In this document: positions 212 through 9,642 of the stretch, one piece after another
Layout of the letters: each line of letters starts with the position of its first letter
Numbering within the stretch: the stretch's first letter is position 1
NCBI RefSeq assembly: GCF_000428825.1
Contig: NZ_KE386803.1
Coordinates: 74,542 to 136,891, forward strand
Direction of reading: 5' to 3'
Length of the DNA stretch: 62,350 nucleotides
Origin: Desulfomicrobium escambiense DSM 10707
GTDB taxonomy: Bacteria > Desulfobacterota > Desulfovibrionia > Desulfovibrionales > Desulfomicrobiaceae
Made by a program: the position numbers and the translations under genes
Notes under the pieces: model-generated
Databases searched by the model: none
The model's input: only the letters and a program-made list of their open reading frames with translations
Told to the model about the DNA's origin: nothing

Positions 212-502
212 CTATAAAATCAGGGGGCCTTCCGGGTCGTACTCGGGCTTGGCACCGACATGCTCGATTTTTCGTTTCCAGTTGGCGCCCAGATAGTAGA
301 AGCGCAGGCTGTCCTTCCGCTCATCCATTTCGGTCAGCAGCCGGTGTTTGAGCCTCGCCCATTGCGCCGGATCAACCACGCATTCGAACACGGAGTACTG
401 CACCCGCTGCCCGTAATCCTGACAGGCTTTGGCGATGCGCCGCAGACGTCTCTCACCCCCCGGGTCCTCGAAACTCACGTCGTAGCTTATGAGTACCAGC
501 AT
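212..502 (-). CDS. cas2: CRISPR-associated endoribonuclease/integrase subunit Cas2 (type I-C)
   Basis: This 96-residue protein starts [13 protein letters not shown]. That is the Cas2 ferredoxin-fold first strand with the family's conserved aspartate in YDV. The C-terminal part ([11 protein letters not shown], then RFYYLG) matches the usual Cas2 strands. A longer reading frame upstream would run through the end of cas1. The start at 502 gives the normal family length and lies 4 nt after the cas1 stop. Cas2 dimers bridge two Cas1 dimers in the spacer-integration complex. It is the last gene of the cas operon, immediately before the leader and array. Confidence 0.93.
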
Positions 503-506
503 GTCG

Positions 507-1538
507 TCATTTTCCCACAAACGGAGGATATCCATCCACGTCGCCGCGAAGCCATCTCGCCATGAGCATGGCCTGTACATGGAAGACGAGCCCCATGGAA
601 ATCCGCTCATTCAAAAACGGATGCACGATCTCATCCTGTTTGCGTTTCTGGTAAGCGACCAGCAGCGTTTTTCGGGCGTCATTGGTCATCCTGACCGCAC
701 CGGTTTCCAGAATCTCGAAGTCGTCTTTCTTGATCTGTCCCAGATTGATGAGCGAAAGTGCCAGACGGTCACCGACGAAGGCCCTGAACTCTTCCATGAC
801 GTCGAGCGCCAGTCCATGGCGTCCGGGCCTGTCCCGGTGCAGGAATCCCACCTCGGAATCCAGTCCGACGCATTCCAGGGCGCTACGCACGTCATGGGCC
901 AACAGGGTGTAGATGAATGACAGCAGACAGTTGACCCGATCCAGAGGCGGACGGCGACTGCGCCCTATAAAGCGGAATTCCGGTTCCCCCGAGAGGATCA
1001 GATGGTCGAACACGCCGAAATAGCCGTTGGCCGCTTCGCCCTCGATGCCGCGGGCGACATCGAGGCTGACCGGCTGCTGCAGACGCTGCAGGCAATCCTT
1101 CAGATGCGACACCTCTTTGTCCAAGGGCGAACCGTCAATCTTGCCGCCATGGTCTCTCAGGGCCCGCTGGACTATCCGTCGAGCATTGATGATCTTGGCG
1201 CTGATGATGGATCTGGCCACCTCGGCGCTTGCCTCTGGAGAATCCGCCCGGCGATACTGCTCTCGTCGAAGCAGGACATTGCCGGAAACAGGCCCCTGCA
1301 CCCGGGCCAGAAAGCGCCCGTTCTCGGTCAGAAAACTGAAGCCCAGCCCTCGCTCGGCGGCAAATCCCATCAAAAACGGGCTGCACGAGACCTGCCCGAA
1401 ACAGACGATACCGCCAAGGGTATGCACCGGCACACGCAGCCTGACTTCGTTGTCCATGCGCACGGCCACGCATTCCCCGTCCTTGGCCAGATATGCGCCC
1501 TGAGTCGTCACGTAGAGCGTATTGAGCAGCTTCTTCAT
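507..1538 (-). CDS. cas1: CRISPR integrase Cas1 (type I-C)
   Basis: This is a 343-residue protein of normal type I-C length. It starts [17 protein letters not shown], the N-terminal beta domain of Cas1. The helical catalytic domain contains [13 protein letters not shown] and, further on, [22 protein letters not shown]. These carry the family histidine and the acidic residues that bind metal. The ATG at 1538 overlaps the cas4 stop in an ATGA, which supports translational coupling. Cas1 catalyses the transesterification that inserts spacers at the leader-proximal repeat. No truncation or missing active-site residue is apparent. Confidence 0.94.
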
Positions 1539-2212
1539 TCGGTGTCCGCCATGGCAGCCAGATACTTCCTGACGGTCTTGCCCCGTGGAAGTTCCGGCAT
1601 GCACAGATCGATCAGTGAACAGGCATCGCACTTCGCCTCGTAGAGAGCCGCAGGGGTTTTCCCCGACGCGACAAGCTCATGCAGACGCGCAGAGGCTCCG
1701 ATCGTTTCCTCACGCAAGACGGCGTCGAATGCGACCACCTCCCTTCGTCTGGTCTTTCCGTAAAAGAGCGCCCCTTGAGCGATGGCCACGCCGAGCATCT
1801 CCTCCAAGGCCATGGCCTGGGCGCAGAGTTGAATCCTGTCCCAGTTGGCGGCCTTGCTGCGGCCCCGTTTGTATTCGATGGGGTAGACATCCCCCCTTTC
1901 AGGGCCGAACTCGACCACGTCGGCCAGACCGGACAACCCGAGGCGCAAGGAACGCAAGGGCAGACTGCGTGCGATGCGCCGTCCCGCACGCACAAGGTCC
2001 ACTCCAGCATCGACCTTCTCGTGAAGTATGCGGCCTTCGGCCGTGAACAGATTTTCCTCCCAGACCCGCTCGATATGGATGAGCGCACATTGCCGCTCGC
2101 AATAGAGCAGATGCTGCAAGGCTGATATGGGGAGAAGGTCGTCTTCCGTATACACAGGAGCTGACTCCGTTTGCGCTTTGCGACGTCGCGACTCGGCAGG
2201 GAAGCGAGTCAA
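1535..2212 (-). CDS. cas4: CRISPR-associated exonuclease Cas4 (RecB-like, 4Fe-4S)
   Basis: This 225-residue Cas4 has an N-terminal cysteine pair in the motif YCERQCAL. The nuclease motif PIEYKRGR (the D/E-x-K element) is mid-protein. The C-terminal pair lies in CDACSLIDLC. Together the four cysteines should hold the [4Fe-4S] cluster. In type I-C systems Cas4 trims prespacers and sets PAM choice and orientation during adaptation. The start overlaps the stop of the HEAT/nuclease gene (ATGA), and its own stop overlaps the cas1 start. It is therefore locked into the operon on both sides. Confidence 0.93.
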   Translation of the reverse strand: MTRFPAESRRRKAQTESAPVYTEDDLLPISALQHLLYCERQCALIHIERVWEENLFTAEGRILHEKVDAGVDLVRAGRRIARSLPLRSLRLGLSGLADVVEFGPERGDVYPIEYKRGRSKAANWDRIQLCAQAMALEEMLGVAIAQGALFYGKTRRREVVAFDAVLREETIGASARLHELVASGKTPAALYEAKCDACSLIDLCMPELPRGKTVRKYLAAMADTE

Positions 2213-3147
2213 CGGCAGCGCCTCAGCTTGCCCATAAGAATTTCACGCATGCTCGGTTTGTCCTCCGGATACAGGGAGATGAGCCGCTTACCCTGCTGCT
2301 GATACAGTTGCTGCTTCTTGAGCATGCCGATCTTGTAGTCAGCGGTGTCCATGCCCCAATACTCAATATAGACATCGAACTCGGGCAGATAGAAATCCGG
2401 CCGGATGGCGTAGCCGTCGAGGATGCGAAAACGCTCGTCGTACCGATAGCGGATACCCTCGGCGCTCAGAGCCTCGCAGACAAGCCGTTCGCCCTCGGAC
2501 TGCACCCAACTGCCGTCCTTGGCGCGGATGGTCTTCTGCAGTTCGATTTTGGTCTCGTAGTTGCGGCGCTCCAGAAAGACTTCGTCGAAGCAGTGGTCGC
2601 AGAACGGTCTCTGAAAGGCCTTGTGACTGCGCACATATTCGTCGGCCGCCAGTTCCACGCCGCAACGCTGACAGCAGTGCACAACCGCACGGTCCGCGAT
2701 ATCCGAAGCCGCACGGATCAGCTTGCCCGCAGCCAGCACACTGCGCTTGACGTAATCGCGCTCGGCCGGATTGGCATAGAGATCGCGCAGGTCCGACAGC
2801 ACCGCCCGGGCAGCGGCCCCGTAAGAGCCAAGGGCCTTGGCCGCGTACTGTCGAACCTGCGGATGTTCGTCACGTAACAGTGGATGCAGCGCCTCCACCG
2901 CTGGAGCCGACGTCACGATGCCCGCCAGTTTGCCCAGGCCTGAGGCCGCAAGTCTGCGCACCAGCGGCGACACGGATTTGGACAGTTCCAGCAACTCCGG
3001 CAGGGCTTGCGGGTCCGCGCTGTTGCCGAGTTCCGTGGAGCGCCGGGCCAGCGTCTTTTCGGTGGAGGCGTTCATGTGTTTCATGACTGATTTCGATTCC
3101 GGGGAATCTCCATGGCGTCGCGACAGTGTGTACCGGCGCGATGCCAT
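2209..3147 (-). CDS. HEAT-repeat, zinc-ribbon and PD-(D/E)XK-like nuclease protein inside the cas operon
   Basis: This is not a standard cas gene. Residues about 46-150 are alpha-helical HEAT-type repeats (for example PLVRRLAASGLGKL and PQVRQYAAKALGSYG). Residues 159-186 hold a CxxC...CxxC zinc-ribbon pattern (C159, C162, C183, C186). Residues about 215-295 resemble a restriction-endonuclease fold: E218/E220, then RPDFYLP (D251), then VYIEYWG (E262), then a lysine-rich helix. The canonical E-x-K lysine is absent and may have migrated to the helix. The gene lies between cas7 and cas4 and overlaps cas4 by ATGA. The first ATG (3147) lacks a good ribosome site; ATGs at 3084 or 3075 are alternatives that leave all domains intact. 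The role is unknown. Defence-related DNA cleavage or help in adaptation is inference from the position. Confidence 0.8.
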   Translation of the reverse strand: MASRRYTLSRRHGDSPESKSVMKHMNASTEKTLARRSTELGNSADPQALPELLELSKSVSPLVRRLAASGLGKLAGIVTSAPAVEALHPLLRDEHPQVRQYAAKALGSYGAAARAVLSDLRDLYANPAERDYVKRSVLAAGKLIRAASDIADRAVVHCCQRCGVELAADEYVRSHKAFQRPFCDHCFDEVFLERRNYETKIELQKTIRAKDGSWVQSEGERLVCEALSAEGIRYRYDERFRILDGYAIRPDFYLPEFDVYIEYWGMDTADYKIGMLKKQQLYQQQGKRLISLYPEDKPSMREILMGKLRRCR

Positions 3148-3155
3148 GTGTGCGG

Positions 3156-4016
3156 TTAGAGTTTTTCGATAACCTCGACGCCGGAGGGAGCCTGGTCGAC
3201 TGCCACCGCGTAGTCGGCAAAGGAGCGTGCCGGGCCGGCGGAGCCTTCGGCGCGCCTGACTTGCACCAAATCGAAGAGCTTATGCGCCGGGGCGTTGCCG
3301 AGCTTGTTCTCGTGCCGGAAGACAATAAGCTTGCGGCTGCTCATGAGGCCCCGGGCAGCCGAGCGGTCATGTTCGAACATGTTCGCCAGGGCATCCCAGA
3401 GCAGATTCAGGTCGTCCTCGGAAAAGCCGGTCTTTTCCGCTAGCGGGGCAGAGACAAAGCCGTGCGCCACATACAGTCCGTAGGGCACGATGTGCTTGCG
3501 GCCCATGGTGCGTTCCTTTTCGAGATCCTTCTCGTTGGTCACGGCCATGCGGGTGATGCTGACTTCCTGCGGAATGATCGGCTCAACGCTTTTGGCAAAG
3601 GCGAGCTGCACCGGGCCGCGCACTTGGCCGCAGTTGACCTCGGTGGTCATGACCGCGCCGAATGTACGGATGTCGAAGAAGTTGGCGCACATCCAGTCGG
3701 TTACTTCTTTCGCCTTTTCGGCATTCTTGGGCAATTTTTTCGCTTCATGAGTCAGTTTGGCTTCAGTGTACGCTTCCAAATGGCTGGTATTCAATACCGC
3801 TTTCTCCTGAATATAAATGCGAAAACCCTTAGCGCCTTCCTTGGCCAGGGTCACATGGTTCCTGATCTTGCGCTTCAGGCACACATCCGTGACCAGACCA
3901 TGCCCTGTTTCCGGGTCGATGCGCGGCATGTTGCCCGCGTCCGGGTCGCCGTTGGGGTTGCCGTTCTCGACGTCAAAAAGCAGCACGAATTCGTAGCGGT
4001 TGGCGATGGCGGTCAT
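3156..4016 (-). CDS. cas7: Type I-C Cascade backbone protein Cas7 (Csd2)
   Basis: This 286-residue protein of the Csd2 family has the hallmark N-terminus YEFVLLFDVENGNPNGDPDA, followed by KRKIRNHV. The C-terminal half contains the conserved TRMAVT and GRKHIVPYGLYVAHGF segments. Cas7 polymerises along the crRNA spacer to form the backbone of the I-C Cascade complex. It follows cas8c by 2 nt and precedes the extra HEAT/nuclease gene by 8 nt. Length and motifs look intact. Confidence 0.94.
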   Translation of the reverse strand: MTAIANRYEFVLLFDVENGNPNGDPDAGNMPRIDPETGHGLVTDVCLKRKIRNHVTLAKEGAKGFRIYIQEKAVLNTSHLEAYTEAKLTHEAKKLPKNAEKAKEVTDWMCANFFDIRTFGAVMTTEVNCGQVRGPVQLAFAKSVEPIIPQEVSITRMAVTNEKDLEKERTMGRKHIVPYGLYVAHGFVSAPLAEKTGFSEDDLNLLWDALANMFEHDRSAARGLMSSRKLIVFRHENKLGNAPAHKLFDLVQVRRAEGSAGPARSFADYAVAVDQAPSGVEVIEKL

Positions 4017-4018
4017 GG

Positions 4019-5764
4019 TTAGTTCTCCTTGCTCTTCTTGGTGAAAAAGTCTCTGCGCTGGTGGTAGTAGCCGATCATGAACAGGCCTTGCTCCTCGGAT
4101 GCCATGGTAGTCGGGAAGTCGCTGAAGGCGCTGATAATGTCCTGCATCATGGCTTCGTAATGGAAGGCCATCCCTTTCTTCTCGGGGTCCTTGCGAAGTT
4201 TGGCCGTGTGGTTGGCCGCATTCTTGAGCAGCATGTGGAAGACCTGTCCCGGATTGGCTGACGCGGAGGCCAGATAGCGGTCCTTGATGGTCGCGCCGGC
4301 TCCGGGAATCGCCTCTTCCTGGGCTTTTTCCAGGACGGCGAAAAGTCGGCCAAGCAGATACGGGCGGTCTGTTCTTGCGGGGTCGAGTGACACGGGTACC
4401 TCCAACTGTTTGTTTCGCGTGAGAAATGCCTTGATGAGTGCGGCCCGGTAATACGTCACCGCGTGTTCGGCACGGATGCGGCCGAGCACCGCCGGCAACA
4501 GGCTCTGCGGGTACTGCCCACCGGTGAGCATGGCCCTGGCCACGCCTCCGGCCAGCACGGGCGAGATGTTCTCGCTCTTGTTCAGCGTCGCGGTCTGGCG
4601 AAGCAGGAGCCAGAGCGGCGGAAACTCGGGCTCGTTGTCGTACTGCCGGATGATTTCCAGATCCCGGAAATGCCTGCCGATCTTGTGCAGCAGACCGCCT
4701 ACGGTATCGACCTCCCAGAAACGTATGGACAGACGGGCCGCGTTTGGGGCCAGGGCCAGCACATAGAAGCGAACGGATTCATCCAGATCGGGCACGATAT
4801 CGACGGCGTGCTTGCCGGAACGGATAGCCTGGAGCAGGTCGTGCAGCTTGATTGCGGTCTGATGGTCGACAGTGGTTTCCGGCTGCGACGATTGTGATGA
4901 AGGGTCAAAGAGATCAGCCAGGAAATCTTCCGCAGGGCTGGTGCACTCGGCCCAGAAGACGATGGTGGCGTCGCCGATGGTGATTTTTTGGCGACTGCCG
5001 CGTGTCAGCAATGCGTTGAGCGCCGTGGTGTAGGCAAAGGCGGATATTTCCCCGACATCCGCCTTGTCCTTGTCATAGGAGACAAAGGCGCTGGCATTGT
5101 ATGAAACGATGTAGCCGCCTGATGTCTGACCGCCTGCGACACCCTTGATGGGAGTATGCACCCGCGCCTGGGCGACATCTTGCTCACCCGTGATCAGACA
5201 CTGCACTCGCGGGGCGGCGTCGGACTTGCCGCAATGCGTGAGCCATACCTTTTGAATCGGCAACCGATTGTGAATGAAGCCCTTGGTTCCTTCGAGGCGA
5301 AAGACGAGATTTGCTGCAGCGATATCGTGCCAGTTCAGAAAAGCGGCGACATTCTTTTCCGCCTGCTCCGGGTCCCAGCTGTCCAGAAATCTTTTTATCG
5401 CCAAGAGCCCGGCGTCATCGAGATCTTCGCAAATTGAGCAAAGCAGCTCTTTGAAGGCGGCAAAACGCTCCGCATTGTCTTTTGCCCCGTTCTTGTCATT
5501 ACCCAGGGCGTACGCCGCTTTGTCCCAGCAAAAGTTGGCCTTTACGCCGGAAGTCCTTGTCACAGCGGCAGGAACGGCCATCTTCCGAGGCCGCAACTTC
5601 CTGCCATCCTGCTCCCGCAGGTCCTCGATGCCCCGCAAATTCCCATCCCCATCCAGCACCAGTGCAAAAGAGATGTTCTCCAGGCTGGTGCCATACGGCG
5701 GCATGCCTGAATCCGGGTCCTCGCTCATGCGTTCGTAATATCCGTGCAGTGCTTGCAGAATCAT
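4019..5764 (-). CDS. cas8c: Type I-C Cascade large subunit Cas8c (Csd1)
   Basis: This 581-residue protein of the Csd1/Cas8c family begins [13 protein letters not shown]. It contains the family-typical region [16 protein letters not shown], followed by the ITGE and [15 protein letters not shown] segments. Cas8c recognises the PAM and helps recruit Cas3. In I-C systems an internal translation start inside cas8c is known to yield the small subunit Cas11c. The same could apply here, but I did not identify a specific internal start. The gene overlaps cas5c by ATGA. Confidence 0.93.
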
Positions 5765-6426
5765 GTCCGCACCTCCGGGGACAGGCGTGACGGCGGAGCT
5801 ATCACCCCGTCCTGCATGATGGCATTGAAGAAGAGTGGGGTCATGTCGCGCTCGAAATCGATGTCCAGCAGCATGTAGCCCAGTTCTCGCTTTTCCCCGG
5901 CGTAGCAGGACGGCGGGACATCGCCTTCAAGCAGTTCGAAGGACGCCGGGAACTCACGGCAGCCCAGACACGGCTGGTGGAAGAACTGTCCGCTGCGCGC
6001 GCGGCGGTTGAAGATGTCCAGATGCTTGCCCTCGTTGTCCGCCGCTCCGGCCTTGTCGGTCAGTTCGAAATGGGCCTCGATGACGTACTCGACGTTGCGC
6101 AGCAGGGTTGCGGCACGCTGCTGGCGGTTGCCGCCGTCATCGACCAGAAAATAGAGCGGCTTTCTGTCGCGCATGGCCGTGACCGGGTTGGGTTTGGGGA
6201 TCTTGGAACTGACCTCGTTGCGGCGCACGTTGTCGAAAACGATGGGCCGCAAGACATGGATTCTGTCCACCACCCAGCGGATGGCCGGTTTCCAGTGAAT
6301 GGCCTCCAGAATGCCCCGGGCGGCGGACGGGGTCATGACGTCATAAGACACCCGCTCCACCTTCATTTCCGGCCTGGTGAAGCAGGCATAGTCGCCCCAG
6401 ACCCGCAGTTTGATGCCAAATGCCAT
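5761..6426 (-). CDS. cas5c: Type I-C Cascade subunit and pre-crRNA endonuclease Cas5c (Cas5d)
   Basis: This 221-residue protein begins [20 protein letters not shown], typical of Cas5d/Cas5c. That family replaces Cas6 as the repeat-cleaving RNase in type I-C, and no cas6 gene is present here. The segment [19 protein letters not shown] is the conserved RAMP core. A strong AAGGAGGAG ribosome site precedes the ATG. The stop overlaps the cas8c start. The repeat hairpin at the left end of the window would be its substrate. Confidence 0.93.
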
Positions 6427-6440
6427 AGGCTCCTCCTTAT

Positions 6441-8618
6441 TCAGGCTATTAAACCTTCAGCTTCCCAAACCCCGCCAGCATCCACGCAGAGGCCGACATT
6501 GTCGCTGTACGCAGCCATATTGCGCAGCACGGGGTACGTGTCCCGGATCATTTCGATGGCGCCATCGGACCTGAGCCGTGCCAGATCCCTGCTTCTGGCC
6601 GTCACGGAATACTGTTGCAGCCTGCGCAGGACAGGACGCGGGAACTCGGTGAAGCGCAGTTGTCGGACCAGTTCTTCCGCCTCGTCTTCCTTGGGGACGA
6701 TCAGGGCGGTTCCTTCATCCTCGATGAAGCGGAACTCCCCCGCGATCTCCCTGAACGGAAAGAGCAGATCCTTGCCCACGGAAGCGTTCAGGCGTTTGAC
6801 GATCTGTTTTTTGTCCAACTCCTGCACGTCATAGAGCAGCCCAAAATACCGGCGCATGGCCGTCAGCCCGAGCGGATCCTCTTCAGGCAGGGAGCGCAGG
6901 GTTTCGCCCGCGCGGCTGGCGCAACGCTGCAGCCACGGCATCCTGGGCGGATTTTCGGGTTCGTACACGACAACCATGCCCAGTCCGTCCAGTCGCCCCT
7001 CGCGGTTGCAGCGCCCGGCGGCCTGGGCGATGGAATCAAGCCCAGCCATGGCCCGATACACGACCGGAAAATCCACATCCACCCCGGCCTCGATGAGCGA
7101 GGTCGATATGACGCGGCAGGGGCGGTTGTCCTTGAGCCGCCGCCTGATGTCGTCAAGCGTGCGCCGCCGGTGTTCGGGATACATGTTCGTTGACAGATGG
7201 AACGCGCCTTCCCGTTCGTGCAGCAGGTCGAACACCGCTCTGGCCTGGGCCTTGGTACCGACAATGCAGAGTACCTGCGTCAGGCCGTCGAGTTGTCCGG
7301 CCAGCGCCGCGTCGGTCAGTCTGCCCGCAAAAGTGACTTCGGTTCGTCTGAGATCGGTGTAGAGCATTGACGGGTCGGCGATGATCTCGCGCACATCCGG
7401 CAAGCGGGTGCGCAGACTTTCGTCATCCACGGCGGGCTGGGTGGCCGTGCACAAGACCACCGAACACCCGTAGTGATCCACCAGCTCTCGCAGGGCGCAG
7501 AGGCAGGGTTCCAGATACTCCGTGGGTATGGCCTGCGCCTCGTCGAGGACGATGACGCTGCGGGTGATGTTGTGCAGCTTGCGGCAACGCGACGGTTTGT
7601 TGCTGAACAGGGATTCGAAGAACTGCACGTTGGTGGTCACGACCACCGGCGCGTCCCAGTTTTCGGCGGCCAGGCCGCGCCACCTGTCATACCCGCGCTC
7701 TTCGGGCTCGTCCTTGCCCATGTAGTTGCAGTGATGCTCCAGCACATTTTCCTTTCCCAGCAAGGCGCTGAAGACACCGGCGTTTTGTTCAATGATGGAA
7801 GTGAACGGAATGGCATAGATGATCCGTCGAAGACCGTGCGTCACGGCATGATCAAGGGCGAAGGCCATGGACGAATAGGTTTTGCCCCCGCCAGTCGGCA
7901 CGGTCAGGGAAAAGAACCCCGGCTCGTCGCCGGCCCTGGTCCGACAATCGGCAAGAACTGTCTGGCGCAGTCTGTTCACCCGGGACGGCGCTGCGTCGCG
8001 GGCAAGTTCAGCAAGCCGTCCATTCAAGGCATCGCGCAAAATCCCGAGGTCGGAACGATGGTTGCCGCTGCGCACGCAGGACTGGCCTGGGTTACAGAAT
8101 GCCTCGGTATCCAGAAAATCCGCGTCCGTAAGGCAGGAAAAAAGCATGCGGGTAAAAAAAGACAGAGAAAAACCGGGATTCGCCGGCCGTTTTGAAAAAG
8201 GCAATTGCAACGCGGCGGGGCAGGTGACACCAGGCAGAATCGCGACATCCGCCGGAATCCGCTCATGCCGGAGGCGATAGTGAAGTTGGCCGTCCTGTAT
8301 CCCGCCGTCGGGAAGGCCGCCGTGGTGCCCGGCGATGATGTACGATAACATTTGGCCGAGCCTGCCGCCCTCATCCCGGCCAAGCCTGGCTCCGAAAATG
8401 GAATGATTGACCCTCAGTGGTTTGCCTTCGAGGCGCCAAATGAATTCTTGAGAGGCCTTTCCGGCGTCGTGCAAAAGGCCGGCAGCCTTTCCCCAGTCGC
8501 TTGCGCCGAAGGCTCCGGCAAACCCTGAAGCCAGGCTGGCCACGTTCCGAAGATGCTCCTCCAGCCCCTGCCAATCGGACTTGTCCGAATTGTCCGTCGA
8601 GTGGGCGTAGTATTTCAT
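6441..8618 (-). CDS. cas3: CRISPR effector helicase-nuclease Cas3 (HD plus DExD/H)
   Basis: This protein is about 725 residues. An N-terminal HD nuclease domain has YAHS at the start and LLHDAGKAS near residue 47. The SF2 helicase follows, with Walker A in [15 protein letters not shown] and motif [13 protein letters not shown]-terminal helicase half contains [14 protein letters not shown] and [11 protein letters not shown]. Cas3 unwinds and degrades target DNA once Cascade is bound. The chosen start (MKYYAHSTD) fits the family. An in-frame ATG at 8639 would add seven residues and overlap the upstream regulator gene. Confidence 0.93.
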
Positions 8619-8628
8619 CTTTCCGCGC

Positions 8629-9600
8629 TCATATCCCATACCTCCCCATCATCCCCCTCACCTTCTCCATCGCCTCCGCCCTCAACCACCCCGGTTCCAG
8701 CACCTCGAAATCCGCGCCCCAGCGCATGGCCCACCAGAGCACTTCTTTGGGTTCCGTGGCCCGAACTTCGTAGACCAGCGAGCCGTCGGGGTTGTCCGTG
8801 AGGCGCTGGCTGGGGTTGTGGTACTCCTCGCGGATGTACGGGGCCGCGAAGGGCGAGAACCAGATCCGCACCGTCTCTGGCTCGCGGTCCACGGCGAAGA
8901 CGCGAAACGAGTTCTGGCGGCGCTCGTCGTAGGCGTAGCCCCGGTTGTTGGTGAACGTGATCCCCGTGAGCCTGGCCCTCGCGATGCGGCACGCCTTGAA
9001 GCATCGCACGGCTCTGCGCCCCCAGTGGTAGCCGTCCAGGTACAGGGCCCCGTCCAGGACGTAGAGTTGGTACGGGTCCACCTCGAACTCCTCGGGTTCT
9101 GCGTGGGGCTTGGCGTAGGAGACCTCGACCCGTCGGCGTTCGGTGACCGCCCGGAACAGGGTGTCCACGACTTGACCCCGGCCGCCGACGTGCGCCGGCA
9201 TTTCTGGCCCGCTCAAGAGGGCCGAGCAGGCGGCGGCGACCGGCGCCTCGTTCACGGCCAGGAGCTTGGTCGCAGCCTTTCTTGCCCGCGAGGCCAGGAA
9301 AGACTCCTGCAGCCCGCCGAGCCGGCCCACCGCCAGGATGATGGCTAGGCGCTCGTCAAGGGTCATATCCGGCGCGGTCAGGAAGGCGTCCTTCTCGATG
9401 ATGTGCCGGCGGGCCTTGCGGTCGAAGCGGAACTCCACGCCGAGCCCCTTGAGCAGCGCGCAGTATCTGCCGTAGGCCGATTTTTCGATCCCCAACTCCT
9501 GTCGAAGCGCGCCCGGCGATATTGCGGGAGTCGCCTTGATCGCCATGTAGAGGTGGAGAATCCGCTCCAATTTCGAGGAGTCAAAGACCTTTGCGCCCAT
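8629..9600 (-). CDS. WYL-domain transcriptional regulator adjoining the cas operon
   Basis: This protein is about 323 residues. The N-terminal winged-helix region spans residues 1-70 (SSKLERILHLYMAI onward). The WYL ligand-binding domain spans about 140-240 and includes PYQLYVLDGALYLDGYHWG. A C-terminal WCX-like extension ends the protein. The ATG at 9600 has an AAGGGG ribosome site at good spacing, whereas the longer frame begins with TTG. It ends 10 nt before cas3 on the same strand and may be co-transcribed with it. WYL proteins near defence operons often act as repressors responding to nucleic-acid ligands. Control of this cas operon is inference from position. Confidence 0.87.
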   Translation of the reverse strand: MGAKVFDSSKLERILHLYMAIKATPAISPGALRQELGIEKSAYGRYCALLKGLGVEFRFDRKARRHIIEKDAFLTAPDMTLDERLAIILAVGRLGGLQESFLASRARKAATKLLAVNEAPVAAACSALLSGPEMPAHVGGRGQVVDTLFRAVTERRRVEVSYAKPHAEPEEFEVDPYQLYVLDGALYLDGYHWGRRAVRCFKACRIARARLTGITFTNNRGYAYDERRQNSFRVFAVDREPETVRIWFSPFAAPYIREEYHNPSQRLTDNPDGSLVYEVRATEPKEVLWWAMRWGADFEVLEPGWLRAEAMEKVRGMMGRYGI

Positions 9601-9642
9601 CTTCTGCCCCTTTGATTCGTTATCAGGCAAGTGCAGTGACCG

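Follow-up and report, generated by a model that had tools for sequence, protein, structure and literature searches.

In a 62,350-nucleotide (nt) stretch of the genome of Desulfomicrobium escambiense DSM 10707 (contig NZ_KE386803.1, positions 74,542 to 136,891; hereafter the window), the operon of a type I-C CRISPR (clustered regularly interspaced short palindromic repeats) system carries an extra gene. It is predicted to encode a nuclease with HEAT repeats, a four-cysteine ribbon and a Vsr-like PD-(D/E)XK domain, and it raises the question of whether it is a dedicated cas gene or a gene that reached the operon from elsewhere. A preliminary description of the window had placed it between cas7c and cas4c, and this position was borne out: the order on the minus strand is cas3-cas5c-cas8c-cas7c-X-cas4c-cas1c-cas2, X being the nuclease gene, and the open reading frame (ORF) first called there, 2209-3147, does exist and encodes 312 amino acids (aa). 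Relatives of this gene lie in cas operons of other subtypes and at non-cas loci, it has a hairpin of its own, and DNA similarity mostly stops at its borders; together these observations point to a mobile gene captured by cas operons rather than to a dedicated cas gene. We consider it probable, though by no means assured, that the locus contains a hairpin-borne mobile nuclease unit that cas operons have captured repeatedly.

Such a unit would measure about 0.95 kb. It would comprise the ORF for the HEAT, zinc-ribbon and Vsr-like PD-(D/E)XK nuclease and, 0-30 nt ahead of it, a covarying hairpin some 40 nt long; at some loci the stop codon is followed by another hairpin or by a repeat, either direct or inverted. 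Units would move among genomic sites, and cas operons would have picked them up many times, mostly just upstream of cas4. The protein may recognize its own hairpin and drive movement as homing endonucleases do, and cas operons may retain units because of a benefit from their co-expression with the adaptation genes.

The borders of the gene differ from those first given. The preliminary description had it start 8 nt after cas7 and share an ATGA overlap with cas4, and neither feature holds. The 8-nt spacing relies on a start at M1 (3147); the likely start is M25 (3075), 80 nt past the cas7 stop, because the match to the PADLOC model of the family begins at residue 25 and many tblastn matches to relatives begin there as well. 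M1 is invariant in an alignment of 76 sequences, which is no independent proof because gene starts in the relatives had been assigned by a script that snapped the rows to start codons. At the other end the letters read TTGA, and the overlap would depend on an unlikely TTG start; the cas4 start of a gene-less relative (L084) aligns with the GTG at 2155, so that 53 nt separate the nuclease stop from cas4. Close gene spacing in a cas operon is thus weak evidence of function, since in this case both the seeming 8-nt spacing and the overlap result from placing start codons within the element. The 80-nt gap to cas7 holds an imperfect palindrome, with a DNA folding energy of -15.0 kcal/mol (z -3.2; none of 200 shuffles as low).

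How general is the position beside cas genes? A contig scan of genomes yielded 202 relatives, the best 80 of which were used in the analyses, so the sample leans to the query's own context. Kiritimatiellota, Lentisphaerota, Verrucomicrobiota and delta-proteobacterial groups account for most of them, and two of our locus labels, L002 and L083, denote one contig, judged by length and identity. Most of the 80 loci are contigs of metagenome-assembled genomes, some ending near the nuclease gene, so contexts may be mis-scored; cas genes were sought with the window Cas proteins, by clustering of ORFs and in a small number of hidden Markov model (HMM) scans, and some cas loci may be missed. On this basis at least 42 of the 80 relatives have cas neighbors, and the gene in the window is therefore not a one-off insertion. 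A window Cas protein gives a tblastn match within 3 kb in 33 (weak in L060, L065, and L074, at 37-42 bits, and in L021 and L046, at 50-52 bits), and cas4 lies within 400 nt downstream in 26. A further seven belong to I-E-like operons (L010, L029, L039, L041, L055, L056, L064), so called on the basis of one ORF cluster (c8) that joins six of the seven and of four Cas7e proteins among the scanned neighbors (members not named); Cse2-, Cas6e-, and Cas7e-like ORFs were read in L056 and L010. Cas3-like helicases lie downstream of the gene in L061 and L071. For subtypes other than I-C the names derive from partial matches and our own reading of the ORFs.

Near up to 38 of the 80 relatives we saw no cas gene with these proteins, clusters and scans. 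Non-cas neighbors include carB, an Omp85 protein, an SNF2/PLD helicase, a subtilase, uvrA, CheB/CheR, a Clp-type ATPase, aconitase, and members of the DNA polymerase I (polA) and tryptophan synthase alpha (trpA) families. Insertion sites vary; they include the gap between cas7 and cas4, positions upstream of cse2 and, in L046, of cas3, a position following carB, and one next to uvrA. Some genomes hold several copies, with two or more strong matches to the PADLOC model (E < 1e-90) in 12 of the 32 genomes searched and fragments also in G013 and G022. Directly upstream of the nuclease gene in L045, L046, L062, and L122 lies a gene with helix-turn-helix and M78-peptidase-like features (ORF cluster c18; Pfam matches for L045, L122 by eye).

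Within the host's own order the gene occurs in 4 of 297 genomes, always in an I-C operon, and a cas7 match at E ≤ 1e-60 is present in 67 of the 297. We fetched the best 30 of 69 cas7 matches; 28 show both cas7 and cas4, and in these the nuclease gene is present four times (the window, L083, L085, and L086, which are the same four genomes) and absent from the other 24, which is not the distribution of a regular I-C cas gene. The preliminary description had proposed that many homologs inside I-C operons would mark a true accessory cas gene. The neighbor listing upholds this in so far as many homologs, no fewer than 42 of 80, do lie in cas operons, and speaks against it as regards I-C, where the gene is found at only 4 of the 28 loci of the host's order. 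Other genes can occupy the same gap: L101 and L102 have a cas7/cas4 gap of 577-583 nt, which in L101 (2398-2967) encodes a 23S-rRNA-IVP-like protein (32.0 bits, against a curated cut-off of 33.8), and the cas7/cas4 gap of the I-C operon in L131 (1424-2068) holds a gene of the 23S-rRNA-IVP (S23) four-helix family (E 1e-21), preceded at the cas7/cas4 junction by a weak match to our hairpin model R1 (28.8 bits).

These distributions bear on the explanation that the protein is a true CRISPR accessory nuclease, which would trim or select prespacers with Cas4-Cas1-Cas2 or act as a backup in interference, would spread as something useful to type I systems, and would have left the other copies as strays. 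The neighborhood of cas genes of several type I subtypes in at least 42 relatives, the 26 copies with cas4 close downstream, the four out of four copies of the host's order in I-C operons, and strong purifying selection on the protein all agree with it. The 24 I-C loci of the order without the gene and the up to 38 relatives without a nearby cas gene do not, nor does the position upstream of cse2 in L010 and L056, I-E operons being as a rule without cas4; the protein tree, moreover, has at least 16 changes of the CRISPR label on well-supported branches. We hold this explanation to be unlikely, if far from negligible. It is compatible with a mobile unit, the two not being exclusive, and the nuclease may work jointly with Cas4-Cas1.

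The hairpin was first noticed as a recurring sequence before the start codon in the flanks of the loci. The density of one pattern for it is 0.71 per kb up to 250 nt from the gene and 0.010 per kb elsewhere in the loci. Thirty-five copies, picked by pattern beside the gene, form alignment A2, on which R1 is based, and only matches outside these 35 rows therefore count as tests of the model. The alignment supports a structure of seven pairs: 94.4% of the cells are paired, and 33 cells are compensatory where shuffles average 8.2 (none of 500 is as high), a covariation signal that is abolished by sliding the pair partners. The pairs changed on both sides (equalled in 41 of 500 shuffles) and the pair types (185 of 500) do not go beyond shuffles.

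Searched in 81 sources, R1 gave 62 matches up to E 1. At E ≤ 0.01 it matched 39 of the 81, every match being on the gene's strand, and 31 of these 39 had contributed rows to the model. The hairpin lies upstream of the gene in 34 sources, ending 0-30 nt before the start codon, and solely after the gene in five (L021, L029, L035, L045, L074; no leader overlap); extra copies occur past the stop codon in L014, L031, L046, L049, and L052. In L031 (2627-5985) the 3.5 kb downstream of the gene contain five more, which surround a stretch rich in repeats; two of the five are over 3 kb from the gene.

The hairpin is rare elsewhere. We scored the 150 best first-look candidates per genome (45 in the motif-first scan described below), and at E ≤ 0.01 R1 found one or two matches in each of 11 of 14 genomes and, in a second set, one or two in 18 of 23 genomes and six in one locus of G329. 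Nearly all of these are loci of the nuclease gene, and a dispersed repetitive extragenic palindromic (REP) repeat could be ruled out on these copy numbers among the scored candidates. When 146 genomes from the class of G003 were scanned motif-first, 20 of them yielded 23 matches in all, of which 19 adjoin such a nuclease gene and four do not, namely the lone hairpins L117, L126, and L129 (no such gene within 3 kb) and L131. Nine matches lie outside the 80 loci, and five of these nine adjoin the nuclease gene (L113, L115, L122, L127, L133); the L127 and L133 hairpins flank a single gene, so the five represent four genes. No Rfam family matched at its gathering threshold in seven loci, with five sub-threshold matches for the leader of L015.

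If hairpin and gene travel together, DNA similarity between copies in different places should end with them. We compared 24 pairs of relatives, 13 of which differ in context by our own labels, and in 10 of the 13 similarity is confined to about -95 to +10, that is, to hairpin and gene, ending at the ORF borders as looked for in a free-standing homing endonuclease (L014/L015, L014/L012, L006/L013, L049/L055, L055/L057, L027/L055, L027/L057, L068/L074, L010/L017, L024/L031). For example, L014 (after carB) and L015 (I-C) share 84% identity along a 904-nt stretch running from -36 to +1. L010 (I-E) and L017 (I-C) belong to a single assembly, and so do L068 and L074. The same-context pairs L051/L058, L020/L028, and L063/L066 stay similar far past the gene, as inheritance predicts. 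In a protein tree of 77 rows the label (CRISPR or other) changes 21 times, at least 16 of them on well-supported (starred) branches.

The flanks also carry repeats. Left and right flanks repeat each other at E ≤ 1e-3 in 11 of 79 loci, eight in direct and three in inverted orientation (L059, L063, L066), against 8 of 216 displaced controls; six of the eight control repeats, at +4000, are probably CRISPR arrays. A looser threshold adds weaker cases such as L014 and L076. Duplications derived from the target were observed in L046 and L079. The nuclease gene of L079 is preceded (6750-6880) by 129 nt that duplicate the cas4 start at 83% identity, which looks as though a cas4 of the unit's own had arrived with it. 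A 99-nt direct repeat flanks the gene in L046 (9916-10991) and contains a cas3-like start (MKYYAHS); its second copy seemingly also holds the first codons of another nuclease gene.

The same hairpin may be read quite differently, as an RNA operator through which a single-gene defense or DNA-repair nuclease controls its own translation, the gene and its 5' leader having spread by ordinary horizontal transfer. This is a serious rival because the hairpin shares the direction of the gene and abuts its start codon: all matches at E ≤ 0.01 in the 81 sources are on the gene's strand, and the 34 upstream copies end within 30 nt of the start. PADLOC lists the family as candidate defense, the fold also resembles that of the repair enzyme Vsr, and purifying selection fits such a role as well. 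What would be unexpected of an operator are the copies past the stop codon in five loci, the three inverted flank repeats, and the three gene-less hairpins, each seen in a view of 3 kb; with these in mind we judge this explanation doubtful. A non-autonomous element moved by an unseen transposase or integrase, with the nuclease as mere cargo, is improbable: hairpins without any such nuclease gene exist, and the weak R1 match of L131 precedes a different, IVP-family gene, but the HEAT nuclease is the partner in 19 of the 23 motif-first matches, and among 100 neighbors of 56 loci without obvious I-C-like genes no non-cas family has more than three members among the matches listed.

The protein itself accords with a mobile nuclease unit. 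The preliminary description knew of no described Cas protein with this layout; the family is in fact present in PADLOC-DB (2023) as HEAT_CxxC_PDDEXK, whose model PDLC01150 matches with E 1.3e-176 over positions 1-288 of 288. The source of this model was not found, and among open-licence PMC texts nothing on the family or its hairpin came up, which does not prove novelty. The HEAT repeats noted earlier were recovered (Pfam HEAT_2, 5.7e-13), and the Cx2C...Cx2C, RPDF, and IEYWG motifs are indeed present in the sequence; the Pfam scan matched no nuclease family and gave only weak zinc-ribbon-like matches. Counted from M25 (the earlier numbers are higher by 24), C135, C138, C159, C162, D227, E238, and K254 are invariant in the 76 aligned sequences. 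E196, invariant in the same alignment, D227, E238, and K254 correspond to E220, D251, E262, and K278 of the preliminary description, and we read catalytic candidates among these four.

An AlphaFold2 (AF2) model of the whole protein (predicted local distance difference test, pLDDT, 86.8; predicted template modeling score, pTM, 0.51) has a HEAT N-terminus, and a fold search with it retrieved chiefly HEAT/ARM-type proteins; the C-terminus was therefore modeled separately (pLDDT 84.8, pTM 0.64). The closest fold to this C-terminal model is the homing endonuclease I-Bth0305I (Z 9.5, 88 residues, 2.7 Å), followed by Vsr (Z 9.0) and TnsA (Z 7.4), and by Foldseek the best value for I-Bth0305I was E 0.013 with a probability of 0.99. 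The nuclease core proposed in the preliminary description is thus predicted, and it is of the PD-(D/E)XK, Vsr/EDxHD-like type to which I-Bth0305I and Vsr belong. By this model the protein would cut DNA. The ratio of nonsynonymous to synonymous substitution rates (dN/dS) is 0.05-0.18 in 12 pairs of relatives; the protein is therefore maintained by purifying selection, and a non-functional ORF could be ruled out.

Several observations weigh against a self-moving unit. On the protein side, Foldseek alone found no match of the C-terminal model in the PDB at E ≤ 0.001, and Z values of 7-8 are common in models without a clear match. On the DNA side, no constant insertion sequence was seen across the insertion sites, where a homing endonuclease would have a fixed site. 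The palindrome-like stretch on the right of the gene has a fold energy no better than shuffles (z 0.17). A second, looser palindrome type (GACTYCRCTTCG...) was recognized by eye in other loci; aligned as A5, it proved too degenerate to serve as a model. The sole R1 match of G345 (L126) is a hairpin without a nuclease gene nearby, and in L085 and L086 the start codon follows immediately after the cas7 stop, the left hairpin being missing. In the pairs L079/L081 and L003/L008 similarity runs on into cas4-cas1, and in L019/L040 it starts at about -230, beyond the unit. Shuffled labels changed 25.8 times on the tree on average, and 16 of 500 shuffles were as low as the observed 21, so the CRISPR label is weakly clustered.

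Nor was a clean empty site found. At the carB locus all eight relatives lack the gene, but the sequence that follows differs too, and we rejected it as such a site. L084, from the same genus, lacks the gene; its cas7 and cas8 are 88 and 84% identical to those of the window, and its cas7-cas4 gap of 67 nt holds a perfect palindrome (fold z -3.75) whose arms resemble those of the window. R1 found no match at this junction with filters off. As an excision scar L084 is suggestive by eye and by fold and unmatched by R1, and we kept it as a weak candidate. Finally, relatives seem to lie in cas operons far more often than chance insertion would produce, and simple movement therefore has to be supplemented by targeting or selection. 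We prefer, as yet unproven, selection for co-expression with CRISPR, mostly next to cas4, because no constant target sequence was seen.

A hairpin-borne mobile nuclease unit remains the explanation we favor, and the observations hint at a little-known kind of mobile gene repeatedly picked up by CRISPR systems. Self-mobilization is plausible given a nuclease fold shared with a homing endonuclease. That this is a new kind of self-mobilizing gene, in which a HEAT/Zn/Vsr-like nuclease recognizes its own covarying end hairpin, moves gene plus hairpin into intergenic gaps, and has been recruited many times by several type I subtypes at the entrance of the adaptation module, is a more tentative proposal, and one we would not count as likely. 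If true, it would join mobile nucleases with palindromic ends to the origin of CRISPR accessory genes, and if the nuclease acts on the hairpins, its repeated capture next to cas4 would make the gain of extra nucleases by cas operons directly testable. The features of the locus are listed in Table 1.

Table 1. Positions in the window of the nuclease gene, its flanking motifs and the cas genes.
Feature	Position	Strand	Remarks
HEAT - four-Cys ribbon - PD-(D/E)XK (Vsr-like) nuclease gene	2209..3075	-	likeliest start M25, 288 aa (ORF 2209-3147 in the preliminary description)
Left hairpin motif	3085..3123	-	model R1, 40.4 bits; window copy among the 35 rows used to build R1
Outer inverted repeat of left hairpin, ATGGCATCGCG...CGCGACGCCAT	3111..3148	-	lies between cas7 stop and likely start codon
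Right-hand palindrome-like stretch, TGACTCGC...GGAGTCAGC	2160..2211	-	by eye; lies between gene stop and likely cas4 start; fold z 0.17
cas4c	1535..2155	-	likely GTG start at 2155
cas7c (Csd2)	3156..4016	-	
cas8c (Csd1)	4019..5764	-	
cas5c	5761..6426	-	
cas3	6441..8639	-	
cas1c	507..1538	-	
cas2	212..505	-	

Immediately 5' of cas3, on the same strand, lies a gene for a WYL/WCX-domain regulator (8629-9630). Positions 1-38 of the window look like the final repeat of a CRISPR array of type I-C.

Among known systems, the PADLOC-DB entry HEAT_CxxC_PDDEXK (PDLC01150) represents this very protein family, matched from end to end; the entry gives a name only and covers neither the hairpin nor the borders of the unit nor the variety of its contexts. 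I-Bth0305I and Vsr provide the best fold matches to the C-terminus, and the unit shares with them a nuclease ORF whose homology mostly ends at its own borders. It differs from I-Bth0305I and Vsr in the added HEAT scaffold and four-Cys ribbon, in the absence of a constant target site among the insertion sites seen, and in sequence, the identity in the structural alignment being about 18%. REP sequences with their REP-associated tyrosine transposases (RAYTs) are similar in that a stand-alone gene for a nucleic-acid enzyme lies next to short imperfect palindromes. REPs are described as high-copy palindromes, including a CGTC-tagged class without a dedicated transposase (PMC3733652), whereas the hairpins here number one or two per genome at E ≤ 0.01 (six in G329). 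The enzyme is also of the PD-(D/E)XK type and not an HUH/Y1 transposase, no HUH tyrosine transposase family being among its matches in Pfam, NCBIfam, and PADLOC. Intervening sequences (IVSs) of 23S ribosomal RNA (rRNA) offer a third parallel: they are selfish elements that carry S23/IVP ORFs together with inverted repeats, and those described lie within rRNA genes (PMC4990558). Their protein is unrelated to the nuclease; in L131 and L101 this same space between cas7 and cas4 is filled by IVP-family genes.

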